From contig NZ_JALJWH010000001.1 in NCBI RefSeq assembly GCF_024168825.1, positions 372,001 through 436,000 on the forward strand: 64,000 nt of DNA. Reading direction: 5' to 3'. Each line of letters begins with the position of its first letter. Position 1 is the first letter of the stretch. The notes beneath the pieces were generated by a model. That model did not search any database and had not been told where the DNA came from. It saw nothing but the letters and a program-made list of their open reading frames with translations. The stretch comes from Paenarthrobacter sp. A20. GTDB taxonomy: Bacteria; Actinomycetota; Actinomycetes; Actinomycetales; Micrococcaceae. This document shows positions 35,665 through 50,200 of the stretch, one piece after another. The position numbers and the translations under genes were made by a program.

Positions 35665-36054
35665 TTACGTCCTCCTGGACTCATACGTTTTTGAGCTTTC
35701 AAGCGGAATGCGAGCAAGCCACTGTTCGAAAACTTACCAGCTTGGACTGGCATGGCCAGCAAATTCCGCGTGTTTCCGCGCCTTTTTGACCAAAATCACC
35801 GGATTTTCGGGGTTTTTTGGGGTGCTTTACGCCCTTGGCGTACCCTTCGGCGGTGATCCCGACCTGCGGCCGGGCCCGGGTGGGAACAGAATCCGCAGGA
35901 CAGTATGTGTGCCTGCCACTCTTTCGGGGACCATTCTTACGGAGCCGCAGTTCATTCCGCCGACCCAACCGGCACACGTTGCGACAATTGCGTAGAGGGT
36001 CAGCGGGGTGATACTTTTCCGGTGATCGTGAACTTTTGGCAGGAGGTGAGACCC
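35665..36054. other. Intergenic region between HU and the patatin leader
   Basis: About 390 bp that carries the divergent control regions of HU (minus) and the leader ORF (plus). No convincing gene is seen; short frames here lack conserved character. Confidence 0.5.
35988..36015 (+). promoter_or_regulatory. Putative promoter of the patatin leader transcript
   Basis: TTGCGT (35988-35993), a 16-bp spacer, GATACT (36010-36015). It would start transcription near 36022, upstream of the leader ORF. Confidence 0.45.
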
Positions 36055-36114
36055 ATGAACGCAGTATCCACAGTGGGCGCTCCCCTGCAGTCCACGATCT
36101 CGCGACTGACCTAG
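36055..36114 (+). CDS. Putative 19-residue leader peptide
   Basis: ATG at 36055 is preceded at ideal spacing by AGGAGGT, one of the best ribosome sites in the window, and encodes MNAVSTVGAPLQSTISRLT before a TAG at 36112. It sits in the 5' leader of the patatin gene (ATG 36161). The ORF and the bases after it contain inverted repeats that can pair in alternative ways, one of which covers the patatin ribosome site. This is the layout of leader-peptide attenuators. The peptide matches no leader I know; what might stall its translation is unknown. Confidence 0.55.
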   Translation: MNAVSTVGAPLQSTISRLT

Positions 36115-36157
36115 TCGCCATTGGGAGCGCCCGTCACGCACTTCGCGAAAGGCGACT
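36075..36157 (+). promoter_or_regulatory. Alternative hairpins in the patatin leader (attenuator-like)
   Basis: Stem A: GGGCGCTCCC (36075-36084) with GGGAGCGCCC (36123-36132), 10 bp. Stem B: GCGACT (36102-36107) with AGTCGC (36113-36118). Competing stem C: AGTCGCC (36113-36119) with GGCGACT (36151-36157), which would hide the AAAGG ribosome site of the patatin gene. B and C are mutually exclusive. Confidence 0.55.
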
Positions 36158-36160
36158 CCC

Positions 36161-37150
36161 ATGAACTCATCATCTTCTTCACCTCTGCACAGCACACCGA
36201 CGACGGTCACTGAGGGGCCGGGCTCAGACGAGCCTTCGCCTGGAGTCGACGCTTCCACCCGGCTCCACCCCACGGGGCAGCGGGCATTGGTCCTCGGCGG
36301 CGGCGGTTCCACAGGCAACGCATGGCTGATCGGCGTGATCGCAGGACTGTTCGACGCCGGGCTGGATGCAACCACGGCCGACCTCACCATAGGAACATCA
36401 GCTGGCGCGACGGCCGCCGCCCAGCTGGCCGGTGCGACGCCGGCGGAACTATTTGCTGCCGCCCTTGCACCTGTCCCGCAGCGGGCCGGAGCTCCAGCTG
36501 TCACCAACCCACGGAATCCGGCCAAGCCCGTGGTGGACCACTTGGACAGAACGGCCAGGATCATCGATGCTTCCGAGGATATGCCTGATATGCGCCGCAG
36601 AATGGGAGCGGCGGCTATCGACATGGCTGAGGCGATGGACGGTGCCAGTGCCCGGTGGCGGGCCACCGTCGCAACCCGGCTGCCCCAACAGTCGTGGCCG
36701 GAACGAGCAGTGCTTCTCACCGCAGTTGACGCCCAAACAGGTGAACCGGTGGTATTCGACCGTCACAGCGGCGTGGAGTTGGTGGACGCCGTGGCCGCCA
36801 GCTGTGCCAGTGGCTTCGCTTACAGCATTGGCAATGGCCGCTACATCGATGGTGGATACCGAACCAACGCTGAGAATGCCGACCTGGCCGCCGGGCACGC
36901 ACGGGTGCTGGTGCTGTCACCCTTTGGTGGCCAAACACGGACACCTACAAAATGGCATATGCACCTCGCAGCCCAGATAGACACTCTAAGGGGCAACGGC
37001 AGCCGCGTGGAAACGGTGTTCCCGGAAGGGGAGTCGGAGCACATGTTCGGCATCAATGCCATGGATCTGTCCCTGCGACCGGCCGCAGCCCGAGCCGGGT
37101 TCGACCAAGGCAGAGCCCTCGCCGGTCAGCTGCGCGAGTTCTGGCAATAA
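36161..37150 (+). CDS. Patatin-like phospholipase
   Basis: A 329-residue patatin-fold acyl hydrolase. The oxyanion-hole loop is LGGGGSTGNAW (45-55), the nucleophile elbow is GTSAG (78-82, Ser80) and the second member of the catalytic dyad is Asp230 in YIDGG. The first ~38 residues are a Ser/Thr/Pro-rich tail without a signal peptide, so the enzyme is probably cytoplasmic and acts on phospholipids or other acyl esters. AAAGG eight bases before the ATG can be sequestered by an upstream hairpin, and a short leader ORF precedes it. It converges on the rRNA operon terminator. Confidence 0.87.
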   Translation: MNSSSSSPLHSTPTTVTEGPGSDEPSPGVDASTRLHPTGQRALVLGGGGSTGNAWLIGVIAGLFDAGLDATTADLTIGTSAGATAAAQLAGATPAELFAAALAPVPQRAGAPAVTNPRNPAKPVVDHLDRTARIIDASEDMPDMRRRMGAAAIDMAEAMDGASARWRATVATRLPQQSWPERAVLLTAVDAQTGEPVVFDRHSGVELVDAVAASCASGFAYSIGNGRYIDGGYRTNAENADLAAGHARVLVLSPFGGQTRTPTKWHMHLAAQIDTLRGNGSRVETVFPEGESEHMFGINAMDLSLRPAAARAGFDQGRALAGQLREFWQ

Positions 37151-37226: not shown

Positions 37227-37346
37227 TGTCCGGCGGTGTCCTACTCTCCCACACCCTCCCGGGTGCAGTACCATCGGCGCTGTGGGTCTTAGCTTCCGGG
37301 TTCGGAATGGGACCGGGCGTTTCCCCCACGCTATGACCGCCGTAAC
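37227..37346 (-). rRNA. rrf: 5S ribosomal RNA, operon 1
   Basis: About 120 nt. On the minus strand it begins GTTACGGCGGTCATAGCG and contains CCCATTCCGAACCCGGAAG and GAGAGTAGG, the conserved helices of actinobacterial 5S. Ends are set by pairing of GGCGG with CCGCC, accurate to a few bases. Confidence 0.93.
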
Positions 37347-37495
37347 TTTGTTACCCGTCCGCGCCCCGGTGGTGGGGTGGGTGGGAAGCGTGGTTACAAC
37401 TGTGGTGTTGTTATTTTGTTGTGTTTTTGTTCCTGGAACAAGCGGGTTGTTGTTCGGGAACCACATAGTGGACGCGTGCAGTGTGTTGTGTGGTG

Positions 37496-42704
<5,209 letters not shown>

Positions 42705-44722: not shown

Positions 44723-44842
44723 TGTCCGGCGGTGTCCTACTCTCCCACACCCTCCCGGGTGCAGTACCATCGGCGCTGTGGGTCTTAGCTTCCGGGTTCG
44801 GAATGGGACCGGGCGTTTCCCCCACGCTATGACCGCCGTAAC
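44723..44842 (-). rRNA. rrf: 5S ribosomal RNA, operon 2
   Basis: Identical to the 5S gene at 37227-37346 as far as I could compare. Confidence 0.93.
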
Positions 44843-44991
44843 TTTGTTACCCGTCCGCGCCCCGGTGGTGGGGTGGGTGGGAAGCGTGGTTACAACTGTG
44901 GTGTTGTTATTTTGTTGTGTTTTTGTTCCTGGAACAAGCGGGTTGTTGTTCGGGAACCACATAGTGGACGCGTGCAGTGTGTTGTGTGGTG

Positions 44992-50200
<5,209 letters not shown>

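Follow-up and report, generated by a model that had tools for sequence, protein, structure and literature searches.

An apparently undescribed leader with a small upstream reading frame and predicted alternative structures precedes unrelated genes in Actinomycetes

The gene for a patatin-like phospholipase in Paenarthrobacter sp. A20 carries a leader that belongs to an RNA switch widely conserved in actinobacteria and apparently undescribed. Comparison among leaders establishes a common layout ahead of at least five unrelated gene families: a characteristic spacing from the start codon of a short upstream open reading frame (uORF) to an arm termed P1a, two helices (P0 and P1), and a uORF that stays open and ends before P1b, the second arm of P1. 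That the leader acts as a translation-coupled switch is well supported by these comparisons, and it is predicted to form mutually exclusive structures, one of which would hide the ribosome site of the downstream gene. We give an even chance to the more specific reading that this is a conserved, modular, translation-level switch of Actinomycetes that senses whether ribosomes leave the uORF start codon.

The leader in Paenarthrobacter sp. A20

The window analyzed here is a stretch of 64,000 nucleotides in which neighbors on the opposite strand flank the patatin gene (Table 1): an HU-type gene on one side and a 5S-23S-16S cluster on the other. Two complete rRNA operons lie on the minus strand of the window (37228-42704 and 44724-50200, ~7.5 kb apart) with identical Rfam scores, apparently as a tandem pair. 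The patatin protein matched no PDB chain by sequence at E <= 0.001 and no NCBIfam model.

An earlier note on this DNA had described a 19-codon reading frame with a very strong ribosome site in the patatin leader, and recomputed coordinates bear this out, with the frame running from the ATG at 36055 to a TAG at 36112-36114. Within its Shine-Dalgarno (SD) sequence, GGAGGTG is near-invariant across leaders (alignments A1 and A6). The pairings that the note had read from the sequence are also present: all 10 positions of the 10-bp stem P1 are paired, the hairpin P2 joins GCGACT to AGTCGC (36113-36118), and P3 joins AGTCGCC to GGCGACT (36151-36157). The further claim that P3 covers the AAAGG of the patatin gene holds for the two G and for part of the spacer, but the AAA stays uncovered. 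That description did not include P0, the option of 36123-36132 to pair with 36151-36160, or the occurrence of the leader at genes other than patatin. A perfect arm pair of at least 10 bp arose in 1 of 400 shuffles of the window leader, and the fold of 36040-36180 (z = -3.06) was equaled or exceeded in stability in 1 of 200 shuffles.

Table 1. Positions of leader elements and genes (window coordinates, except for the monooxygenase gene of locus L058).
Feature	Sequence	Position	Strand	Basis or remark
-35 element	TTGCGT	35988..35993	+	predicted; 18 nt from -10; fits TKGMNN / TANNNT, spacing 16-19
-10 element	TACTTT	36012..36017	+	predicted; transcript start ~36024
P0a	GATCGTG	36024..36030	+	predicted mRNA 5' end; pairs with P0b
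uORF Shine-Dalgarno	AGGAGGTGA	36041..36049	+	sequence
uORF	MNAVSTVGAPLQSTISRLT and stop	36055..36114	+	in-frame stop just before P1b across leaders
P1a	GGGCGCTCCC	36075..36084	+	within uORF; 10 bp with P1b
P0b	CACGATC	36093..36099	+	partner of P0a
P2a	GCGACT	36102..36107	+	partner 36113-36118
P2b / P3a	AGTCGCC	36113..36119	+	shared arm: P2 hairpin, or P3 with patatin ribosome site
P1b / P4a	GGGAGCGCCC	36123..36132	+	switch arm: partner P1a or 36151-36160
Patatin gene Shine-Dalgarno	AAAGG	36148..36152	+	sequence
P4b / P3b	GGCGACTCCC	36151..36160	+	SD end to start codon; alternative partner of P1b, P3a
Patatin-like phospholipase gene, 329 aa		36161..37150	+	PF01734, E 1.5e-10
rox gene of L058		4124-5665		

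Distribution across Actinomycetes

The note had made its proposal depend on conservation upstream of orthologous patatin genes, and such conservation was found: the leader lies directly upstream at 52 of 57 retrieved patatin loci, these being the best matches from a family and a genus sample that overlap. The family sample had patatin matches in 53 of its 149 genomes and the genus sample in 121 of 198. The elements kept at patatin loci are the uORF SD sequence and start, P1, and the surroundings of the ribosome site of the gene.

Searches of plasmid records by blastn recovered the same leader in Streptomyces, Embleya, and Nonomuraea, ahead of other genes, and a search from an Embleya copy (L058) returned 35 records, including one Rhodococcus and one Nocardioides. 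A covariance model built from alignment A1 matched 122 of 394 sampled Actinomycetes genomes at E <= 0.001, with one to five matches per genome. When a phylum-wide sample was scanned at E <= 1e-5, 17 of 396 genomes matched, and all 17 belong to this same class. The genome of the window (G000) gave a single model match and has only one such leader at E < 0.05. A blast search of a leader against phage records found no match.

Leaders from the Actinomycetes scan were taken from 30 loci and 120 fetched regions, among the matches listed. Three records in a contig scan bear labels from outside this group; they stand among the matches listed, which represent a biased part of the genomes. The leader is followed by a patatin gene in records labeled Sporosarcina (L276) and Acidobacteria MAG (L239) and lies near the end of the fetched stretch in one labeled Proteobacteria MAG (L299), which may reflect transfer or mis-binning.

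Gene classes behind the leader

The total set held 214 distinct leaders, of which 207 were assigned to gene classes by clustering the first downstream proteins and separating hydrolases from monooxygenases by a sequence motif; the remaining seven were unclassable by gene and are left out of class counts. The 207 leaders comprised 63 ahead of patatin genes, 81 ahead of alpha/beta-hydrolase genes (abh), 24 ahead of rifampin-monooxygenase genes (rox), 18 ahead of GNAT genes (gnat), and 21 ahead of genes for a PrmC-related methyltransferase (hemK). With at least four other gene families found behind the leader, control specific to patatin genes was rejected.

Proteins of the abh class matched no Pfam family, and their nearest solved relative is the esterase 4ao6. 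The rox representative at L058 scored 835.6 bits against the NCBIfam rifampin monooxygenase model (cut-off 800) and matched 5vqb at E 1e-213. The products of 16 of 24 rox genes begin with residues similar to the abh-class N-terminus (E <= 1e-3), and the monooxygenase proper starts later, with residue 1 of 5vqb aligning at residue 41 of the L058 protein. This likeness would fit an exchange of genes directly after the leader.

GNAT proteins gave weak matches to RimI. The gene infA, which encodes translation initiation factor IF-1, follows the GNAT gene within 1.8 kb at 18 of 18 GNAT loci (L071 and L062 included). The hemK representative L207 passed TIGR03704, a model for putative protein N(5)-glutamine methyltransferase. 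A search for the methyltransferase in the order to which genome G410 belongs matched 119 of 119 genomes at E <= 1e-30; we count it as present in 117, because the best match in G571 and G1134 falls only in the range of a paralogue of ~40% identity. For the Streptomyces fungicidicus methyltransferase, the leader indicates a start codon ~75 nt upstream of the annotated one (position 1393 of L402).

The upstream reading frame

Of 207 leaders, 205 have an in-frame uORF stop no more than 25 nt before P1b, and none has its uORF stop before the end of P1a. A late stop is found in the other two frames in 43 and 24 of the 207 leaders. The frame that reads P1a differs between lineages, giving WVLP, GAP, or GCSL. 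Because the late stop persists despite these changes of frame, the stop site and the openness of the frame are what is selected, rather than the later peptide. The hemK class shows the same pattern, with a late stop in the uORF frame in 21 of 21 leaders and in the other frames in 5 and 0; its lengths from start to P1b take all three values modulo 3. The peptide conservation that the earlier note had named as a test of its proposal is confined to the beginning of the uORF: codons 2-5 are similar, mostly N/T-A-V-S with some synonymous variation (GCA/GCT/GCC, GTA/GTG), and some leaders begin VNVS, VNES, or VNAT, but beyond about codon 5 the peptide is not conserved and is read in three frames.

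The distance from the uORF start to P1a is nearly fixed. It is 20 nt in 59 of 63 patatin leaders, 19 or 16 nt in all 81 abh leaders, 19 nt in 23 of 24 rox leaders, and 18 or 19 nt in all gnat (18) and hemK (21) leaders. Only L186, at +14, has a P1a that begins outside +17 to +21; in the other 206 of 207 leaders it begins within that range. The distance from the stop to P1b is variable, mostly 7-21 nt.

Start codons of the uORF differ by gene class. ATG predominates in patatin (60/63) and rox (22/24) leaders, whereas abh leaders use mainly GTG (69/81; ATG 10, ATT 1, GTT 1) and the 18 gnat leaders use GTG (12) or ATG (6). In the first hemK set, 19 of 21 uORFs began with ATT or ATC. An SD motif was recognized at 27 of the 30 best methyltransferase loci, all with ATT (19) or ATC (8); the other three lacked the motif by the pattern used and were left out. 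Among 44 distinct methyltransferase leaders, starts were ATT (29), ATC (13), GTC (1), and ATG (1). All four leaders in named records agree, with ATT in S. fungicidicus and in both Embleya records and ATC in Nonomuraea gerenzanensis; for one of these, whose SD spacing falls outside the pattern, the start was read by eye. Start codons of the type that IF3 discriminates against (ATT, ATC, or GTC) were typical only of the hemK class (43 of 44), and the uORF in the window has ATG. The selection for an in-frame stop (205/207), together with class-specific start codons, indicates that the uORF is under selection and is read by ribosomes.

Helices of the leader

P1 gives little covariation because it is nearly invariant; at pair 9, U-A replaces C-G in 8 of 207 leaders. 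P0 crosses P1: its 5' arm lies at the predicted transcript start, and its 3' arm in the uORF, behind P1a. Its arms are GATCGTG/CACGATC in many patatin leaders and CCGTGAC/GTCACGG or GGCCGTG/CACGGTC elsewhere. In a random draw of 48 aligned leaders from four classes, changes on both sides occurred in four of the seven P0 pairs and in 12 cells, compared with 5.9 cells in shuffles (reached in 2 of 500); P0 and P1 were counted jointly here, all double changes lie in P0, and shuffling does not correct for relatedness. The number of pairs with double changes (four) did not exceed that in shuffles for these 48 leaders (126 of 500). Duplex energies over 30 nt gave no clear signal for P0, with native pairs of the abh class worse than cross-class pairs. 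When contiguous helices were scored in this class, the native value (17.6) was above the shuffled value (13.6) but below the cross-class value (19.4). Neither P0 nor P3 was seen in the hemK class.

The predicted off-state consists of P3, which pairs the post-stop segment with the ribosome site of the gene, around P4, which pairs P1b with a nearby segment. The leaders' own P3 partners beat permuted ones in the patatin, abh, and rox classes (6, 0, and 58 of 2000 permutations, respectively, reached the native mean) but not in the gnat class (717 of 2000), and they beat partners from other classes in four of five classes, hemK being the exception. P4 duplexes were stronger than those with shuffled partners in all five classes. 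Double changes in P3 and P4 combined were weak in the alignment and not beyond shuffles (164 of 500). In hemK leaders, P1b pairs directly with the ribosome site (native -12.15 versus swapped -11.44; 21 of 2000 permutations). Most of P3 is lost in one leader, L073, as judged by eye.

Folding with a ribosome in place

We computed the cost of opening the main ribosome site under the rule that no stem may close tightly around a ribosome, with pseudoknots excluded. Formation of P1 made the site cheaper to open, compared with masking of P1a, in 167 of 207 leaders, a difference seen in 61 of 63 patatin, 24 of 24 rox, 16 of 18 gnat, and 20 of 21 hemK leaders and weakest in the abh class (46 of 81). 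Placing the ribosome at the start codon instead of codon 6 lowered the opening cost in 51 of 63 patatin, 42 of 81 abh, 18 of 24 rox, 8 of 18 gnat, and 20 of 21 hemK leaders, with no consistent effect in the abh and gnat classes. Relative to free RNA, a ribosome at the stop codon eased opening in 42 of 63 patatin, 68 of 81 abh, 22 of 24 rox, 10 of 18 gnat, and 9 of 21 hemK leaders. In the abh and rox classes, the stop-codon ribosome opened the site more, and in the patatin and hemK classes the mean opening cost was higher with a ribosome at codons 4-14 than at the start codon. Given these opening costs, reading at the start codon is best supported in the patatin and hemK classes and reading at the stop codon in the abh and rox classes. 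The state with P1 lies on average 4-18 kcal/mol above the whole ensemble in free RNA (5.8 in the window), and therefore kinetic trapping or a P0-P1 pseudoknot would be needed.

The window leader was also scanned codon by codon in a calculation in which stems could close around the ribosome. The opening cost was 12.0 kcal/mol in free RNA and changed little with a ribosome at codon 1 (11.2), rising to 13.9-16.7 at codons 3-13 and falling to 6.3-9.3 at codons 15-19. It was 6.2 kcal/mol with P1 forced and 14.8 with P1a masked. The low cost at codons 15-19 probably comes, at least in part, from P1 closing around the ribosome.

Promoters of the leader

Promoters activated by WblC are described in PMC7157823 as TKGMNN / TANNNT with a spacing of 16-19 and a transcript start 7-8 nt 3' of the -10 element; the same source links WblC to resistance to translation-targeting antibiotics. 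A TANNNT ending 24 nt before the uORF SD sequence was the commonest distance in patatin (34/63), abh (60/81), rox (22/24), and gnat (7/18) leaders, and was not the commonest in hemK leaders. A generic sigma-70 scan found no site in 35900-36300 of the window.

The fuller WblC-type pattern (GAAAW - TKGM - TANNNT), which we applied in a form looser than the published one and which matched at most 0.8% of random 90-mers, was found at 28 of 81 abh, 14 of 24 rox, and 9 of 18 gnat leaders (51 of 123). It was absent from all 63 patatin leaders, including that of the window, which has no GAAAW before its -35 element, and from all 21 hemK leaders. Promoters of this kind, known from the WblC/WhiB7 regulon, precede part of the abh, rox, and gnat leaders, and the patatin leaders (that of the window among them) and hemK leaders lack them. 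The WblC-type promoters would link the leader to translation stress indirectly.

A proposed mechanism and its alternatives

The earlier note had suggested a translational switch that senses ribosome stalling. The supported part is a uORF read by ribosomes and coupled to exclusive structures over the ribosome site; it draws on the conservation of the leader, covariation in P0, exchange of P3 partners, and folding, and it is not specific to patatin genes. The evidence speaks against a conserved stalling peptide. In the mechanism we propose, ribosomes would read the uORF by way of its near-perfect SD sequence and, while elongating, would cover P1a, leaving P1b, together with the post-stop segment P3a, to pair with the downstream ribosome site and turn the gene off. 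If no ribosome initiated, or if one were held at the uORF start, P1a would lie free at or just past the leading edge and could pair with P1b, releasing the downstream site and turning the gene on. The gene product would then appear under impairment of initiation or of the first step of elongation, such as a ribosome-targeting antibiotic may cause. On the model of infC and sigR, an IF3-sensitive uORF would be expected in the methyltransferase class, where the uORF begins with AUU or AUC.

We favor initiation as the trigger because P1a begins at +17 to +21, start codons are class specific, the leader is associated with an IF-1 operon, and the toiL uORF offers a precedent. The leading edge of a start-stalled ribosome in Escherichia coli lies at +16 to +18, as reported in PMC12121999. 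The folding results differ by gene class, and ribosomes could provide the input by being held at the start codon, by being held at the stop codon, or through the rate at which they translate the uORF. Somewhat short of an even chance, and offered tentatively, is the broader proposal of a portable 'initiation meter' of Actinomycetes, largely independent of the peptide, with its sensitivity set by the uORF start codon (AUG, GUG, or the IF3-discriminated AUU/AUC) and recruited by drug-modifying enzymes, an IF-1 operon, and a PrmC-related methyltransferase.

Control could instead be coupled to termination, which we regard as unlikely but deserving of weight: a ribosome paused at the stop would cover P3a and P2, the site would stay open, and slow termination or heavy uORF translation would turn the gene on. 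The stop just before P1b fits this reading, as does the easing of the site by a stop-codon mask relative to free RNA in most abh, rox, and patatin leaders and in 10 of 18 gnat leaders, and one target is the methyltransferase of TIGR03704, a relative of PrmC, which modifies release factors. Yet fewer than half of the hemK leaders gain over free RNA, the distance from stop to P1b varies while that from start to P1a is nearly fixed, and the AUU/AUC starts and the IF-1 operon are left unexplained. Attenuation of the erm/cat type, in which a drug-bound ribosome stalls on a specific nascent uORF peptide and the fold changes, would share the short uORF, strong SD sequence, and alternative hairpins, and could draw on the similar codons 2-5 with their synonymous variation. 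We consider it improbable: three reading frames are in use beyond about codon 5, which disfavors a conserved stalling peptide, the first codons themselves have variants such as VNVS, and in the patatin and hemK classes a ribosome at codons 4-14 makes the site harder to open than one at the start.

Two readings that give translation of the uORF another role or none are less probable again. The crossing of P0 and P1, both conserved, and a long near-invariant segment would suit a ligand-binding riboswitch with a pseudoknot, in which the uORF is incidental; we think this very improbable, as the stop selection and the class-specific start codons point to a uORF that is read, the targets share no obvious metabolite pathway, and no Rfam model matches the leader in the window or at six other loci. 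Least probable of all is a model in which uORF translation sets transcription attenuation or Rho-dependent control, for which several ABC-F resistance genes are examples. Transcription attenuation is described for Streptomyces uORF leaders (PMC12421871), but a scan of 35900-36300, made in the window only, found no intrinsic terminator, and the alternative pairings end on the SD sequence and start codon of the gene.

The rifampin-monooxygenase targets suggested rifamycin as a signal, and a rifamycin-associated DNA element is known, for which a literature search returned nothing. We did not adopt this idea, because the uORF reads ribosomes and the other targets are unrelated.

If translation initiation is indeed what the leader senses, about a third of the sampled Actinomycetes genomes would carry an unnamed RNA regulator, some in up to five copies, and an antibiotic-modifying enzyme, an extra IF-1 gene, and a widespread PrmC-related methyltransferase would share one signal, the state of translation initiation. 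The leader would then offer a handle on the function of many uncharacterized hydrolases, patatins, and acetyltransferases, a possible marker for the discovery of resistance genes, and a conserved uORF with an AUU/AUC start.

Comparison with known systems

No model of Rfam 15 matched the leader in the window or at six other loci, and in the literature searched we recognized no publication describing it. The translational attenuators of erm and cat genes combine a uORF with mutually exclusive hairpins over a downstream ribosome site and depend on a defined stalling peptide. The present leader shares the first two properties, whereas its peptide is frame-labile. A related system is toiL, the uORF of topAI-yjhQ in E. 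coli, where tetracycline holds ribosomes at the uORF start and retapamulin also induces; as described in PMC12121999, occupancy of that uORF by ribosomes alters a structure that hides the downstream ribosome site, as we propose here, but the stalled ribosome does so by disrupting a repressive hairpin. Particular to the present leader, relative to toiL, are its modular use across a class, an anti-sequestering arm within the uORF, unrelated targets, a helix with the 5' end, and the AUU/AUC class. The are5sc and tiaA leaders of Streptomyces coelicolor are likewise actinobacterial uORF leaders, with drug-induced stalling at the start codon; as described in PMC12421871, their uORFs (MLV and MVGDDDISG) come with a predicted terminator/antiterminator, while the window region has no terminator. 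Non-canonical starts also have a parallel, in that Streptomyces infC begins with ATC and sigR with GTC, the start of sigR being repressed by IF3 (PMC5472188); there they lie on the regulated protein, and here they lie on the uORF. Overall, the leader would work like known translation attenuation by uORFs, and it differs in its modular reuse, the frame-labile peptide, the 5'-end helix, and the class with AUU/AUC starts.
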